From: an uncultured Eubacterium sp.
GTDB lineage: Bacteria; Bacillota; Clostridia; Oscillospirales; Acutalibacteraceae
Assembly: GCA_944380635.1 (NCBI GenBank)
Contig: CALWID010000021.1
Location: 1-44,183 of the forward strand
Length of the DNA stretch: 44,183 bases
Reading direction: 5' to 3'
In this document: piece after piece, positions 13,565 through 26,329 of the stretch
Numbering within the stretch: the stretch's first letter is position 1
Layout: every line of letters starts with the position of its first letter
Program-made: the position numbers and the translations under genes
The notes under the pieces: generated by a model
What the model saw: only the letters and a program-made list of their open reading frames with translations
The model's database searches: none
What the model was told of the DNA's origin: nothing

Positions 13565-13831
13565 TTATTCTTCCAAAATTCCCGCTTTTCTTATAACATC
13601 AAGCAGTTCTTTTACATCCGCTCTTACAACATCTTCCTCAGCGTCATACTTTTCAAGCACGGCGGCAACAATACTATCCTCCGTCTGCTCCGTTTTAAGC
13701 AGATTAAATATAAAATTAGCGGTGGGGTTATTATTGATGATACCGTTAAATTTTTTTGAAAGTTCACCTGTTGCTATGGCAAAATCTTTACCGTCTATAT
13801 TGCCGAGCATAATATCTTTATTGAGTTTCAT
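13565..13831 (-). CDS. PqqD family protein (RRE-like peptide-binding domain)
   Basis: An 88-residue protein with the PqqD layout: a short beta segment at the N terminus (DIMLGNIDGKDFAIATGE) and helices that end in VKELLDVIRKAGILEE. Stand-alone PqqD proteins present the leader of a precursor peptide to a modifying enzyme (RiPP recognition element). The ATG at 13831 is preceded by GGTGA and gives the usual N terminus. A GTG at 13840 would add three residues and also has a ribosome site (AAAGG), so the start is not certain. It lies between rlmD (35-45 nt away) and the nucleotidyltransferase. No precursor peptide is visible next to it. Confidence 0.8.
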   Translation of the reverse strand: MKLNKDIMLGNIDGKDFAIATGELSKKFNGIINNNPTANFIFNLLKTEQTEDSIVAAVLEKYDAEEDVVRADVKELLDVIRKAGILEE

Positions 13832-13875
13832 ATTAATCACCGTAACCTTTCAGTATAAAAAATAAATAAAAATCA

Positions 13876-15231
13876 TTAAATTTTTTCAACCAAAGAAACA
13901 GCCTCCACATGCGCGGTGCGTGGAAACATATCAACAGCCTTAAGGCGCTTTAAGCGGTAACCTTTGGAATTTAAGATTTCCAAATCGCGGGCAAGTGTAG
14001 CGCTGTTGCAGGAAACATACACTATTTTTTTAACGCCTAAATTATAGATAATATCAAATAGTTCTTTTTGGCAGCCTTTCCTCGGCGGATCAAGTATAAC
14101 AACATCGGGCAAGGCGCCTTTTTTAACAAGCAGTTCTGCGCCCTTAAAAGCGTCAGCCGCTATAAAATGCGCGTTGGTTATACCGTTTATCGCAGCATTT
14201 TCACGGGCGTTTTCAACCGCCTGCTCCACAATTTCAACTCCGTAAAGCGCGCGGCATTTATCCGCAAGGGTAAGCCCGATAGTACCGGCGCCGCAATACA
14301 TATCAAGCACCGTTTCAGTGCCTGTGAGGCAGGCGAATTGAGCAACGCAGGAATAAAGTTTTTCACATTGAGAACGGTTAACCTGATAAAAACTTTCAGG
14401 CGATATAACAAACTTTTTTCCAAGCAGAATATCCGTTATTTTATCACTGCCCCAAATAATTTCAGTTTCACTGCCGAGAATTACATTCGTGTTTTTTTGA
14501 TTTATATTAACGGCAACGCTTTTAAGCCCCGGAACAGCGGATTTAAGCAGCGAAACAAGCAATTCGGGGTTAGGGATAGTTCTGCCGTTTATAACGGCGC
14601 ACGCCATTATCTGGCCCGTTGCAAAAGCTTTGCGAAAATAGATATGGCGCAAAAGGCCTTTGCCTGTTTTTTCATCAAAAGAATCCACTTTGCTCTTAAG
14701 CGCCCACTGCTCAAACGCCCTGATGCCGCTTGAAAACTCAGGCGGCTGAAGGCGGCACGAATCTGCGGGAACAACGCGGTGGCTCTTAAAAGCGTAAAAT
14801 CCGGCGGTAAAACTGCCGTTTTCAATTCTAACGGGATATTCGGCTTTATTTCTGTAAAAACAGGTTTCATCCGCGCCGATAATATCCTCCGCCTCAAAAT
14901 CCATATGCCCTATTCTGCGTATATTTTGCTCAACAAAATCTTTTTTAGCGGCAAGTTCCGCAGAATAATCAATATTGCGAAAAGAACAGCCGCCGCATTT
15001 ATCGGAAACAGGGCAATCGGACGGTATTCTTGACGGTGAGGGAACAAGTATTTCCCTTACTATGCCCACGGCATAATTTTTTGATGTTTTGATAATGTGG
15101 GCAAGTATTTCATCTCCGGGAACGGCATTTCTTACGAAAACCGCCATGCCGGCATACCTGCCGACGGCGCTTCCGAGCGGTGTTACCGAATCAATATTCA
15201 GTTTTATTTCATCGTTCTTTTTAAGCGCCAA
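13876..15231 (-). CDS. rlmD: 23S rRNA (uracil-C5)-methyltransferase, RlmD/TrmA family
   Basis: Methylates a uracil of 23S rRNA (U1939 in E. coli) at C5 using SAM. It has an N-terminal TRAM domain (about 1-65), iron-sulfur cluster cysteines C73, C79 and C82 in CPVSDKCGGC, a SAM site near VLDMYCGAGTIGL, the DPPRKGC loop, and the catalytic cysteine in YVSCNSATLARDL. The 451-residue length is normal. The start is TTG at 15231, supported by TTGGTGA 7 nt upstream. It is the first gene of the long leftward operon that ends with the radical SAM gene. Clostridia often carry paralogues, so the exact target base (RlmD versus RlmCD) is not fixed. Confidence 0.92.
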   Translation of the reverse strand: MALKKNDEIKLNIDSVTPLGSAVGRYAGMAVFVRNAVPGDEILAHIIKTSKNYAVGIVREILVPSPSRIPSDCPVSDKCGGCSFRNIDYSAELAAKKDFVEQNIRRIGHMDFEAEDIIGADETCFYRNKAEYPVRIENGSFTAGFYAFKSHRVVPADSCRLQPPEFSSGIRAFEQWALKSKVDSFDEKTGKGLLRHIYFRKAFATGQIMACAVINGRTIPNPELLVSLLKSAVPGLKSVAVNINQKNTNVILGSETEIIWGSDKITDILLGKKFVISPESFYQVNRSQCEKLYSCVAQFACLTGTETVLDMYCGAGTIGLTLADKCRALYGVEIVEQAVENARENAAINGITNAHFIAADAFKGAELLVKKGALPDVVILDPPRKGCQKELFDIIYNLGVKKIVYVSCNSATLARDLEILNSKGYRLKRLKAVDMFPRTAHVEAVSLVEKI

Positions 15232-15360: not shown

Positions 15361-18021
15361 TTACTTTTGCGCTCTGCGGCTCTCAATTTTTCGCTGGATG
15401 AGTTTTACGAGTTCAACTATCGGGATTACCATAAATGCAAGCAGGATAGAAATTAAATACTCAAGCGGAGAAATTGCGGCAAAATCAAAAGCATTTGCAA
15501 GAAACGGCACATATATTACAAGCGTGGTAAGCACAAAACTGAGCGCCATTGCTCCGTACAGAAACTTATTATGCGATTTAAGCCTGAATATTGATTCGCG
15601 CCTTGAACGCATATTAAACGAATGGAATATTTCCGCAAGGGAAAGAGTGAGAAACGCCATAGTCATTCCGTTTTGATGAATAAACTCGTCGGTGCCGTGA
15701 GCAAGGTGCATTCCGGCATAATAAGCAAGCAGAGTTACAACGGAAACCATAAGCCCCTGCCACGCAACATCAATGCCCATACCGCCTGCGAAAACGCCGT
15801 CGCTGCTGTTTCTGGGTGCTCGTTTCATTATATCCGGCTCGCCCTTTTCAACGCCGAGCGCCATTGCGGGGAAAGAATCGGTAATAAGATTTATCCACAG
15901 CAGGTGAACAGGCTCAAGCACAACGAAACCTGCAAGCGTTGCAATAAAGATGGTGAGCACTTCCGAAAGATTTGAAGAAAGCAGAAACTGAATTGATTTT
16001 CTGATATTATCATAAATTCTTCTGCCCTCTTCAACGGCGGAAACTATAGTTGCAAAGTTATCATCAGCAAGCACCATATCGGCAACATTTTTTGTAACAT
16101 CCGTGCCGGTAATGCCCATACCTATACCTATATCGGCGTTTTTAATGGACGGAGCGTCATTTACTCCGTCGCCGGTCATTGCGGTAACTTTTCCGTTTTT
16201 GCGCCATGCGTTTACGATTCTTACTTTATGTTCCGGCTGAACACGGGCATAAACGCTGTATTTTTCTATATCTTTTTCCAACTGCTCATCAGATATTGAG
16301 TTGAGTTCAACGCCGGTTATCGCCTGCGATTCATCGGTTGCAATACCGAGTTCCTTTGCGATTGCTACGGCAGTGTCTTTATGATCCCCGGTTATCATAA
16401 CAGGGGTGATACCCGCCTCTTTTGCCTCCTGAATAGCGGCAACCGCCTCCGGGCGGACGGGGTCTATCATTCCTGCAAGCCCTATATAACAAAGGTCTTT
16501 TTCAAGCGATTCGGCTGAAGTATCTTCCGGCAGTTTTGAATACGCTTTCATTGCAACCGCCAAAACACGCAGCGCCTTATCCGCCATTTCTTTATTATCG
16601 GCAAGAATTTTGTTTTTAATATCATCCGTCATCGGAACTCTTTTGCCGTTTATAAGCGCCTGGGTACACACGCCCAAAACAACATCCGGCGCGCCCTTGG
16701 TATACTGAATAAACCCTTTATTGATTGATGAATGAACGGTAGACATCATTTTTCTTGAAGAGTCAAACGGAGCCTCCCCGACGCGCGGAAATTCAAGTTC
16801 AAGTTCTGTTTTGGGCATTTCAAGTTTTTTTGCCCATTCAACAAGCGCCGCCTCCGTAGGCTCGCCCTTTACAACGCCGTCCTCAAGCACTGCATCCGAA
16901 CAAAGTGCCATTGCCTGCGCTATAAGTTTTTCGCTGTCTCCCCTGAAATCGGTAACCGTCATCTTATTTTGCGTAAGAGTACCCGTTTTATCAGAACAGA
17001 TAACCTGAGTACAGCCAAGGGTTTCAACGGCGGTTAAACGGCGCACAACGGCATTTCTTTTGCTCATTTTTGTTACGCCTATGGAAAGCACAATAGTAAC
17101 TACTGTTGCAAGGCCCTCCGGAATAGCGGCAACGGCAAGAGAAACCGCAACCATAAATGTATCAAGCATAGTATCAAAAGTGAGCGCCTGACCGCTTGTT
17201 ATATTTCTTATAATATCAAGCGCGAAAATAACTACGCATATTCCGAGAACAAGATAGGACAGCACTTTTGAAAGTTGATTAAGTTTTATCTGAAGAGGCG
17301 TTTCGCCGTCCTTTGCGTCATTCAGCGCGCCCGCAATTTTGCCCATTTCGGTATCCATACCCGTTGCGGTAACTACTGCCTCACCGTGCCCATAAACAAC
17401 ATTTGAGCCCATATAGCACATATTTTTACGGTCGCCGAGCGGAATTTCGTCTTCGCCCGAAAGCGGCTCGGACTGCTTATCAACAGGTACTGATTCGCCT
17501 GTAAGCGCCGATTCCTCTATTTTCATAGACGCGCAGTTAAGAATACGGCAATCGGCGGGAACGCTGTCCCCCGCTTCAAGAACAACAACATCGCCTGTTA
17601 CAAGTTCCTCGGACGGGACAATTTGCAGTTTTCCGCCGCGCTTTACCTTGCTTTTTGCCGCGGCTATCTGCTGAAGAGCGTCTATTGCTTTTTCCGCTTT
17701 TGTTTCCTGATATACGCCCAGCACGGCGTTTATAAGCACAACAAGCAGAATTATTATTACATCCGCCGGAAATTCATTTTCATATGCGGAAGTTATTGCG
17801 GAAACAACTGCGGCAACGATAAGAATTATCGTCATAGGGTCTGTAAACTCCATAAGGAATTTATGGATAACGGATTCCTTTTTGCCCTCCTGCAATTTAT
17901 TTCTGCCGTTTTCTTCAAGGCGCTTTTGAGCCTCGTCTGAAGAAAGCCCGCCGGCTGAACTTTTCAGTTCATTAAGAACCGAACCGCCGTTCTGCAGATA
18001 TTCTTTCACACTAATCACCAT
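15361..18021 (-). CDS. P2A-type cation-translocating ATPase (Ca2+/Mn2+ exporter type)
   Basis: An 886-residue P-type ATPase that pumps divalent cations across the membrane. Visible motifs are TGES (174-177), the phosphorylation site CSDKTGTLTQN with D344, MTGDGVNDAPS, and the ion-site motifs AAIPEGL (helix M4) and NLITDSFPAMALG (helix M6). These are the SERCA/PMCA-like (P2A) ion ligands. Family members export Ca2+, and several bacterial ones behind a yybP-ykoY riboswitch export Mn2+. The leader of this gene looks like such a riboswitch, so Mn2+ efflux is likely (inference). AAAGG is 7 nt upstream of ATGGTGATTAG. The gene is monocistronic and ends at a clear terminator. Confidence 0.95.
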   Translation of the reverse strand: MVISVKEYLQNGGSVLNELKSSAGGLSSDEAQKRLEENGRNKLQEGKKESVIHKFLMEFTDPMTIILIVAAVVSAITSAYENEFPADVIIILLVVLINAVLGVYQETKAEKAIDALQQIAAAKSKVKRGGKLQIVPSEELVTGDVVVLEAGDSVPADCRILNCASMKIEESALTGESVPVDKQSEPLSGEDEIPLGDRKNMCYMGSNVVYGHGEAVVTATGMDTEMGKIAGALNDAKDGETPLQIKLNQLSKVLSYLVLGICVVIFALDIIRNITSGQALTFDTMLDTFMVAVSLAVAAIPEGLATVVTIVLSIGVTKMSKRNAVVRRLTAVETLGCTQVICSDKTGTLTQNKMTVTDFRGDSEKLIAQAMALCSDAVLEDGVVKGEPTEAALVEWAKKLEMPKTELELEFPRVGEAPFDSSRKMMSTVHSSINKGFIQYTKGAPDVVLGVCTQALINGKRVPMTDDIKNKILADNKEMADKALRVLAVAMKAYSKLPEDTSAESLEKDLCYIGLAGMIDPVRPEAVAAIQEAKEAGITPVMITGDHKDTAVAIAKELGIATDESQAITGVELNSISDEQLEKDIEKYSVYARVQPEHKVRIVNAWRKNGKVTAMTGDGVNDAPSIKNADIGIGMGITGTDVTKNVADMVLADDNFATIVSAVEEGRRIYDNIRKSIQFLLSSNLSEVLTIFIATLAGFVVLEPVHLLWINLITDSFPAMALGVEKGEPDIMKRAPRNSSDGVFAGGMGIDVAWQGLMVSVVTLLAYYAGMHLAHGTDEFIHQNGMTMAFLTLSLAEIFHSFNMRSRRESIFRLKSHNKFLYGAMALSFVLTTLVIYVPFLANAFDFAAISPLEYLISILLAFMVIPIVELVKLIQRKIESRRAQK

Positions 18022-18028
18022 AGCCTTT

Positions 18029-18088
18029 CAGGCTACAAAAAAATAATTGAAATTATTAACGCCTTATTGTAGCCTGATAAGGCGTTAA
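18029..18088 (-). promoter_or_regulatory. hairpin with a loop complementary to the bases just before the ATPase ribosome site
   Basis: On the transcript, TTAACGCCTTAT (18088-18077) pairs with ATAAGGCGTTAA (18067-18056) in a perfect 12-bp stem. Its whole 9-nt loop, CAGGCTACA, is the exact complement of TGTAGCCTG at 18037-18029, which directly precedes the AAAGG ribosome site. Folding could give a pseudoknot that touches the initiation region. A short AATAATT/AATTATT hairpin and a T7 run lie in between, so a terminator function is also possible. Function is inferred from the sequence only. Confidence 0.6.
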
Positions 18089-18104
18089 TGGTGATTACAG
18101 CCAT

Positions 18105-18135
18105 CTCAAAATTATGCCGCAAGGCAAATTTTGAG
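18105..18135 (-). promoter_or_regulatory. strong hairpin over the stop codon of the leader ORF
   Basis: CTCAAAATTTGCC and GGCATAATTTTGAG can form a 13-bp stem with a single bulged base and a 4-nt loop. It covers the TAA of the leader ORF, so translation of the ORF would be expected to disturb it. Confidence 0.55.
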
Positions 18136-18180
18136 GGCAATATAATCCGGATTAGCATGAATTTTCACGCTAATCACCAT
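18112..18180 (-). CDS. 22-residue leader ORF copying the ATPase N terminus
   Basis: A short ORF with its own ribosome site (GAAAGG before the ATG at 18180) encodes MVISVK followed by IHANPDYIALKICLAA and a TAA. The first six residues are identical to the ATPase N terminus (MVISVKEYLQ), because the start region is duplicated. The 5' half of the ORF lies in an inverted repeat (GATTAGC...GCTAATC, about 18151-18176). Its stop codon lies in another (18105-18135). It may be a regulatory leader peptide or just a by-product of the duplication. Confidence 0.5.
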   Translation of the reverse strand: MVISVKIHANPDYIALKICLAA

Positions 18181-18263
18181 AACCTTTCCTGCTGCCGAAA
18201 AAACACCGCGCGTCCTCTGCGGCAGCCGGCAGAGATACGCAGTTAAGGGATTGCCCGAGAATT

Positions 18264-18302
18264 AAAAAGACCCGTATATAGTATTACTACCATATACGAG
18301 TC
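18264..18302 (-). terminator. riboswitch expression-platform terminator
   Basis: On the reverse strand GACTCGTATAT (18302-18292) pairs over 11 positions (one G-U) with ATATACGGGTC (18279-18269), followed by TTTTT. It sits directly after the aptamer and its 5' arm is contiguous with the aptamer's 3' strand. This is the usual layout for a transcription-terminating riboswitch that is relieved by ligand. Confidence 0.85.
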
Positions 18303-18384
18303 TCATTCTTTAAAACTAAACCAGCTTAAAAAGCATGATGTTGATTTAGATTACACGATAAGTGCGGAACTACTCCCTCATATC
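18303..18384 (-). promoter_or_regulatory. probable yybP-ykoY (Mn2+-sensing) riboswitch aptamer
   Basis: The leader transcript begins near GAGGGAGTAGTTCC. It has a small CAC/GTG hairpin, then a helix TAAATCA/TGGTTTA enclosing ACATCAT and a GCTTTTTAAGC hairpin, and ends in GAATGAGAC next to the terminator. The GGGAGTAG and CATCATGC...AGCTGG elements and their order match my recollection of the yybP-ykoY family, which senses Mn2+ and often controls P-type ATPases. The assignment rests on pattern recognition, not on a covariance search. Confidence 0.72.
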
Positions 18385-25974: not shown

Positions 25975-25997
25975 AACAATTACTCCTTAAAAATATA

Positions 25998-26329
25998 AAA
26001 CGGGTCGGTCTGTAAGCCGAGTTCTGTTATCGGCAGCCATCTATCTCGACGCGCCATTGCTGACGCGCTCCAGCCACATTTCGGGATTATGTGTCGAGCA
26101 AACAACCTCCCAGTCTGTGTTGCAGCGGATAGGGTTTACATGGCAGCGGATGTCTCCACCCGCTCGGTGAGCTCTTACCTCGCCTTTCCACCCTTACCGT
26201 TTTCACGGCGGTATATCTCTGTTGCACTTTCCCTAAGGTTTCCCTCGGCGGCCGTTAGCCGTTATCCTGCTCTGCGCTGCTCGGACTTTCCTCACATTTT
26301 AAAATGCGCGGCTGCCCGACCGGCCCGTT
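25998..26329 (-). ncRNA. rnpB: RNase P RNA, bacterial class A
   Basis: The catalytic RNA that matures tRNA 5' ends. On the reverse strand the 5' helix P1 (ACGGGCCGGTC) pairs with the 3' GACCGACCCGT. The universally conserved GAGGAAAGTCC is at 26283-26293, the GGAAAGTGCAACAGAGA block follows, and the 3' part holds AGATAGATGGCTGCC and ACAGAACTCGGCTTACAG. Length (about 330 nt) and P-helix order fit the A type. No separate U-run terminator is seen before iolJ. Confidence 0.96.

Follow-up and report, generated by a model that had tools for sequence, protein, structure and literature searches.

A structured RNA repeat, probably mobile, before the start codons of unrelated genes in an uncultured Eubacterium

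The 44,183-nt contig CALWID010000021.1 of an uncultured Eubacterium sp. from the family Acutalibacteraceae (GenBank assembly GCA_944380635.1; the whole of this stretch is referred to as the window) carries, next to the gene for a cation-transporting P-type ATPase, one of about 42 copies of a ~165-nt repeat that is dispersed through the 2.0-Mb genome. Nearly all of these copies lie in the sense orientation, with a constant distance between their ends and the start codon that follows, and the genes behind them are mostly unrelated. We consider it quite likely that the repeat is a non-autonomous mobile element, akin to a miniature inverted-repeat transposable element (MITE), that acts through its RNA, and that it is not a stage of an ATPase riboswitch, as had been proposed on the basis of the window alone (hereafter, the sequence-only reading).

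Copies of the element and their placement at start codons

A blastn search of the genome, with 271 bases of the window as the query, listed 59 matches at E ≤ 1 and identified 42 places with E below 1e-10; the 17 further matches are short and mostly fall on the opposite strand within the same copies. A covariance model (R1) was constructed from 43 copies and a hand-written structure; in 39 stretches of this genome it gave 43 matches, of which 40 exceeded 40 bits. The copies from this genome considered below number 42, two of them being the upstream partners in tandem pairs that blastn had revealed; besides tandem copies, there are copies that have lost their 5′ body. Across the genus, R1 matches were obtained in 48 of 60 genomes (the present one included), with between 0 and at least 45 copies per genome, and they extend to 10 of 134 other genera of the family; by blastn alone, the element is seen in 26 of 37 genus genomes (again counting this one) and in 0 of 23 genomes of other genera. 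A cultured member of the genus probably has the element as well: the ATPase locus of genome G005, which contains 5 copies, is present in its entirety (189 of 189 sampled 30-mers) in contig L069 of Eubacterium coprostanoligenes ATCC 51222. One locus from another genus (L357, G115:C64:9585-9760) holds a single near-consensus copy scoring 195 bits, which suggests that the copy either was transferred recently or lies on a contaminating contig. At L358–L365 (genome G186) and L366–L368 (genome G136), the layout is unchanged but the sequence has diverged strongly.

The placement of the copies was assessed by asking whether an open reading frame (ORF) of at least 60 codons, or one still open where the locus ends, starts at a distance of 17–22 nt, counted from the initial G of GAAAGG, a motif resembling a Shine–Dalgarno (SD) sequence near the 3′ end of the element, the place of which was located with a loose purine pattern. 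Such a start is present for 39 of the 42 own copies and for 91 of 96 copies from relatives (130/138 combined); for sense positions drawn at random from these loci, the figure is 967 of 13800 (7%). The three exceptions among the own copies comprise the two upstream members of tandem pairs and one copy with its start at 25 nt. Outside the genus, 20 copies from six genomes were examined, and 19 of them have the same placement.

Pfam matches were obtained for 37 of 40 downstream ORFs (at most 260 residues of each being scanned), and these belong mostly to unrelated families: the functions represented include a P-type ATPase, MatE, HIT, starch synthase, class I tRNA synthetases, a response regulator, alanine racemase, SpoIIP, the DNA polymerase III beta subunit and FecCD, amongst others. 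An ORF that spans the whole element and ends at the gene occurs in only 13 of 131 copies, and 47 of the 131 have an ORF of any kind, 10 codons or longer, that stops there; the reading frames vary among the copies, and a leader peptide or translational coupling was accordingly rejected as the general role of the element. Likewise, the internal AUG of the element was rejected as a general start codon: of the 97 copies with both this AUG and a gene, the two are in frame in 76 and out of frame in 19, and it cannot serve as the start in 21 of the in-frame copies because a stop codon precedes the start of the gene.

RNA fold and the supplied ribosome site

The element is predicted to fold into two helices, P1 and P2, a third helix, P3, formed between an anti-start arm and a start-side arm, and a hairpin, P4, whose loop engages a strand beside GAAAGG in a pseudoknot, P5 (Table 1). 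In an alignment of the copies (A1), 88.5% of the cells of 52 hand-written pairs are paired, and 26 pairs carry changes on both sides as compared with 15.5 after shuffling; the signal drops when the partners are slid, although this control somewhat favours the hand structure, since the pairs were first written by hand and then counted. For P5, six of the nine pairs have changed on both sides with the pairing kept. An alignment-free comparison, made in fixed windows on 94 copies from relatives, gave mean matches of 8.35 nt between the P3 strands (6.03 shuffled, maximum 6.54) and 8.26 nt between the P5 strands (5.97 shuffled, maximum 6.44), the shuffles taking no account of the relatedness of the copies. 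A second value for P3 (8.03 versus 5.15) is circular, as the anti-start arm had been picked by its fit to the start region, and the fixed-window value is the one used here. In the own copies alone, the P3 match of 6.03 (5.66 shuffled, maximum 6.21) reveals no covariation, because their sequences hardly vary. Among the relatives, the start-side octamer takes several forms (AUGUGAAU in 26 of the 94 copies, AUGGUGAU in 25, AUGGGAAU in 22 and AUGGAAAU in 8, as well as AUGCAAAU and others), and the anti-start arm varies in step with it. In the copies from other genera, the arm sequences are quite different, and complementarity of both the anti-start arm and the bases preceding the SD sequence is visible by eye in several. 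In the G136 versions, the strand that pairs with the pre-SD bases appears, by eye, before the anti-start arm and not in a hairpin loop.

This covariation indicates that the RNA fold of the element is real and under selection, and that it includes both the helix between anti-start and start regions and the pseudoknot beside GAAAGG; on the first of these points, the sequence-only reading had the pairing right. A second pairing of the anti-start arm, with bases just after P4, averages 5.92 nt (5.23 shuffled, maximum 5.53), and lends only modest support to a bistable switch between this pairing and P3. RNAalifold applied to A1 recovered less of this structure, namely P1, some of P2 and a small hairpin next to GAAAGG. 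The likely reasons are that the alignment does not register shifted subtypes correctly and that the program cannot predict pseudoknots. No Rfam gathering threshold was reached by the copy in the window, nor in 14 loci with copies from this genome, the genus and other genera.

At its 3′ end, the element has the layout GAAAGG-CU-AUGnnnAUUA-nn-start, which is kept even where the body has gone. The corresponding 17-nt pattern, GAAAGGNTATGGTGATT, occurs 59 times in the genome with at most two mismatches, versus 2 occurrences for the reversed control, and all of ten sites with little or no element body, picked by eye from exact matches to the pattern, lie 19–25 nt before the start of an ORF. Eight of the short sites could be located in the nearest relative that we found (genome G027): L328 shares a similar GAAAGGCTAAGGTGAA and L337 has GAAAGGTGATTA, whereas the other six have different leaders, mostly with ordinary SD sequences. 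We infer that these short 3′ ends are substitute ribosome sites.

Mobility, alternative explanations and the ATPase leader

The ATPase of G027 is 92% identical to that of the window. Of 22 downstream genes sought in this relative, 20 were located and one more was found incidentally; none of these 21 orthologues carries the element, and most have, as judged by eye, an SD-like sequence right before the start codon. It follows that the element is mobile and sits between the SD sequence and the start codon. Indeed, 89 of 103 copies have an SD-like sequence immediately on their left (for example, AAAGGAGTTTT..., CAGGAGGATAAT... and TAGGAG...), as compared with 1182 of 6900 random 14-mers. In some copies, including that of the window, L009 and L014, GGTGATTA is present at both ends as a direct repeat.

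On the reading that we favour, the element would insert between the SD sequence of a gene and its start codon and bring with it a substitute ribosome site, consisting of GAAAGG plus, in one subtype, GGUGAU; it is presumably for this reason that the insertion is tolerated. By pairing its two arms, P3 could cover the supplied site, and should then lower or tune initiation, with P4 and P5 holding the SD sequence next to P3; hiding the site in this way may tune expression, quiet the element or serve its mobility. As copies age, the 5′ body would be lost, leaving the short 3′ ribosome site behind.

A number of observations weigh against this account. The empty sites rest on one close relative, and, in the reverse direction, a gene that follows a copy in G027 was sought in the present genome but no orthologue was found, so that this comparison is uninformative. 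Inspection by eye reveals neither a clear or consistent target-site duplication nor a terminal inverted repeat, and the boundaries of the element are those that we infer. The Y1 transposase has no match in this genome (G000) or in the copy-rich G015 and G021, although 18 of 36 searched genomes (this one among the 36) are positive, including element-free ones such as G002 and G016; an IS200/IS605 origin was therefore rejected. A reverse transcriptase domain (RVT_1) likewise has no match in G015, G021, G060, G082 and G073, which are five of the six genomes with at least 13 copies, and is represented in the present genome by one weak match (32.8 bits; cut-off 29.6), so that this route was rejected as well; no mobilising enzyme was thus found in a search limited to these two types. 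Moreover, the role of GAAAGG as an SD sequence is putative, its 14-nt spacing to the start codon being long in the subtypes that lack GGUGAU, and the older copies without an anti-start arm suggest that the switch is dispensable to the host gene. Among the five relatives' copies that fail the placement test, three have no recognisable gene start, one leads into a 42-codon ORF and one is truncated by the end of its contig. Finally, metagenome-assembled genomes may miss or collapse repeats.

Strong covariation in P3 and P5, the fixed spacing to the start codon and an architecture shared with other genera despite very different sequences would equally be expected of a cis-regulatory RNA, either a riboswitch or a protein-binding site, that has been spread by selection to place many genes under a common translational control. 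We regard such a regulon as improbable, given that the downstream genes have no common theme, that the element is absent from all 21 of the located G027 orthologues, that its copy number ranges so widely within one genus, and that tandem and 5′-truncated copies exist.

Mobility at the level of RNA, in the manner of an intron that reverse-splices into a target recognised by pairing between P1 and the bases beside the SD sequence, is more improbable still. In 103 copies, covariation between the left-flank bases and the 3′ arm of P1 is seen, chiefly at positions 3 to 5 (pairing at position 3 in 87 of 103 copies, with 49 expected, and at position 5 in 68 of 103, with 35 expected); the element begins with G(U/C)GUG, and the 5′-shortened copies retain their 3′ ends. 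The shuffles behind the covariation statistics ignore relatedness, however, and in several comparisons with G027 the left ATTA seems, by eye, to be borne by the element rather than derived from the target, so that the covariation between P1 and the flank may be compensatory. Additionally, no intron or ribozyme is matched in Rfam, and the five high-copy genomes have no reverse transcriptase. That the element represents a new mobile class, which targets the interval between SD sequence and start codon through P1 pairing, carries a pseudoknotted, switchable ribosome site and spreads through essential genes without killing them, is an idea that we rate as rather unlikely, albeit somewhat less so than either of these alternatives.

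In the window itself, the start region of the ATPase gene (18036-18007) does recur 159 nt upstream (18195-18166), as the sequence-only reading had it, but imperfectly, with 25 of 30 bases identical. The upstream region opens a 22-codon ORF, MVISVKIHANPDYIALKICLAA, that has its first six residues, MVISVK, in common with the downstream frame, and the anti-start sequence UAAUCACCAU (18097-18088) is the exact 10-nt complement of AUGGUGAUUA at both 18180-18171 and 18021-18012; in both these respects the description was accurate. The segment has a folding energy of −86.8 kcal/mol (z −7.4 versus shuffled sequence). The ATPase itself probably starts at GTG 18009, 12 nt after ATG 18021, because M[KR]EY[LF] stands at this point of the frame in 28 of 30 same-genus ATPase loci, the exceptions being the window (VKEYL) and L159 (MKEYQ). 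Among these 30 loci, a strong R1 match is confined to the window, with weak ones in L164 (19.9 bits) and L158 (18.4 bits). In G027, the full element is absent from the ATPase gene, and an older half (CGGCTGCCG ... CGGCAGCCGGAAAGGCTTGTGAATCAA) stands directly before the ATG, made up of the loop CGGCTGCCG, the strand CGGCAGCCG and then GAAAGGCT (R1 score, 18.4 bits). The window retains the same older half copy, with a mismatch in its pseudoknot strand, and the recent copy abuts the end of it. This accounts for the second start region and its leader ORF, and for the anti-start sequence being complementary to both starts. On the preferred explanation of a mobile repeat, the leader ORF is a chance product of the two adjoining copies, and the variable frames noted above speak against the function that had been ascribed to it.

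The proposal that the anti-start sequence acts as a second, gene-specific stage of the ATPase riboswitch, choosing between the starts of the leader ORF and the ATPase, is largely refuted and the least probable of all: the complementarity to both starts is exact and both pairings can form when enforced (−70.0 kcal/mol with the leader start, −78.7 kcal/mol with the ATPase start), but the element precedes ~40 mostly unrelated genes, it is present in only one of the 30 same-genus ATPase loci, the leader frame is not conserved, and masking of either start is a possibility open to few copies, as the anti-start arm can pair with the upstream flank over at least 7 nt in only 10 of 111, even though the mean of 5.15 nt (4.83 shuffled) slightly exceeds the best shuffle (5.07). 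The leaders of homologous ATPase genes lack the repeat, an outcome that the sequence-only reading had itself named as a refutation, yet the element is a real and widespread family.

The riboswitch-like leader further upstream received no Rfam call at the cut-offs; in a permissive scan, its best match was SSRC10, a Streptococcus sRNA (28.7 bits; cut-off 56), and the two may be the same type of RNA. Of the 30 same-genus ATPase loci, 25 contain both of the leader's core motifs, GGGAGTA[AG]TTCC and GAATGAGAC; the leader appears to resemble yybP-ykoY. Elsewhere, the window encodes an RNase P class A RNA (25997-26327, minus strand).

Table 1. Coordinates of the element, its parts and adjacent features in the window
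Feature	Position	Strand	Basis or remark
Recent copy of the structured, putatively mobile element	18012..18175	-	model R1, 195 bits; match 18004-18180
Helix P1 (GATTAGCGTG / CATGCTAATC)	18150..18175	-	covariation
Helix P2 (GCCCTCAAAATT ... AATTTTGAGATGGC)	18100..18138	-	covariation; GCTC/GAGC arms instead in some relatives
Anti-start arm of P3 (TAATCACCAT)	18088..18097	-	covaries with start region across relatives
Hairpin P4	18055..18089	-	loop CAGGCTACA (18076-18068) is one strand of pseudoknot P5
Second strand of pseudoknot P5 (TGTAGCCTG)	18029..18037	-	adjoins GAAAGG
GAAAGG, SD-like part of the putative supplied ribosome site	18024..18029	-	at this place in 130/138 copies
Start-side arm of P3 (ATGGTGATTA)	18012..18021	-	contains GGTGAT, a further SD match
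3′ half of older, diverged copy	18171..18236	-	hairpin loop CGGCTGCCG, complementary strand CGGCAGCAG, GAAAGG, AUGGUGAUUA
Cation-transporting P-type ATPase	15361..18009	-	PF00122 and PF00690 (Pfam) in first 260 residues; probable start, from relatives
Riboswitch-like leader with terminator hairpin, upstream of ATPase	18262..18381	-	weak SSRC10 match and core motifs
3′-end remnant GAAAGGTTACGGTGATTAAT before ATG of next gene downstream	13832..13851	-	R1 match 13826-13990, 26.7 bits; pattern match

Comparison with known repeats and wider implications

The closest precedent is provided by the mycobacterial interspersed repetitive units (MIRUs), which are described as short, dispersed mobile repeats that insert at start codons, probably with little effect on the genes (PMC12548453). 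Their placement at start codons in the sense orientation is matched here, whereas a MIRU carries an ORF coupled to the gene and the present element has no conserved ORF; unlike a MIRU, it has a conserved RNA fold with a pseudoknot, an anti-start arm and a supplied SD-like site. For the insertion of MIRUs at start codons, that review cites Supply et al. (1997). The present repeat also shares with MITEs and other non-autonomous mobile repeats its multiple copies and its absence from the orthologous sites of a close relative. The bcr1 repeat of the Bacillus cereus group, for which a mobile-element character has been reported, is similarly dispersed and presumably of similar size; to our knowledge, it is neither tied to start codons nor a source of ribosome sites. 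REP elements are linked to IS200/IS605. Their characterization as short, palindromic, multicopy repeats (PMC3733652) does not extend to the strict start-codon placement or the pseudoknot seen here, and the genome, as noted, has no Y1 transposase match with which to associate the element with MITEs of that kind. Nor does the element fit group II introns or retroelements, given the lack of an Rfam intron match and the scarcity of RVT_1. The TAACTGA repeats of the Beggiatoaceae are said to lie in many copies immediately upstream of the start codons of genes without a common function (PMC4679880) and in this are like the present element; they consist, however, of 7-bp tandem units with little SD character, and the account given in the same source, as far as its passages on the repeats go, does not describe evidence of insertion. 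No title or abstract describing the element was found in the literature searched, subscription literature being mostly outside its scope.

A mobile repeat of this kind would invade the most sensitive bases of genes, housekeeping ones such as those for the DNA polymerase III beta subunit and class I tRNA synthetases included, and it is apparently the replacement ribosome site that enables it to do so. As its 17-nt 3′ end occurs so often in the genome relative to the reversed control, we estimate that a few percent of the genes may owe their present translation start to the element. The pairs of occupied and empty sites constitute a set with which the tolerance of genes to insertion at the start codon could be measured.

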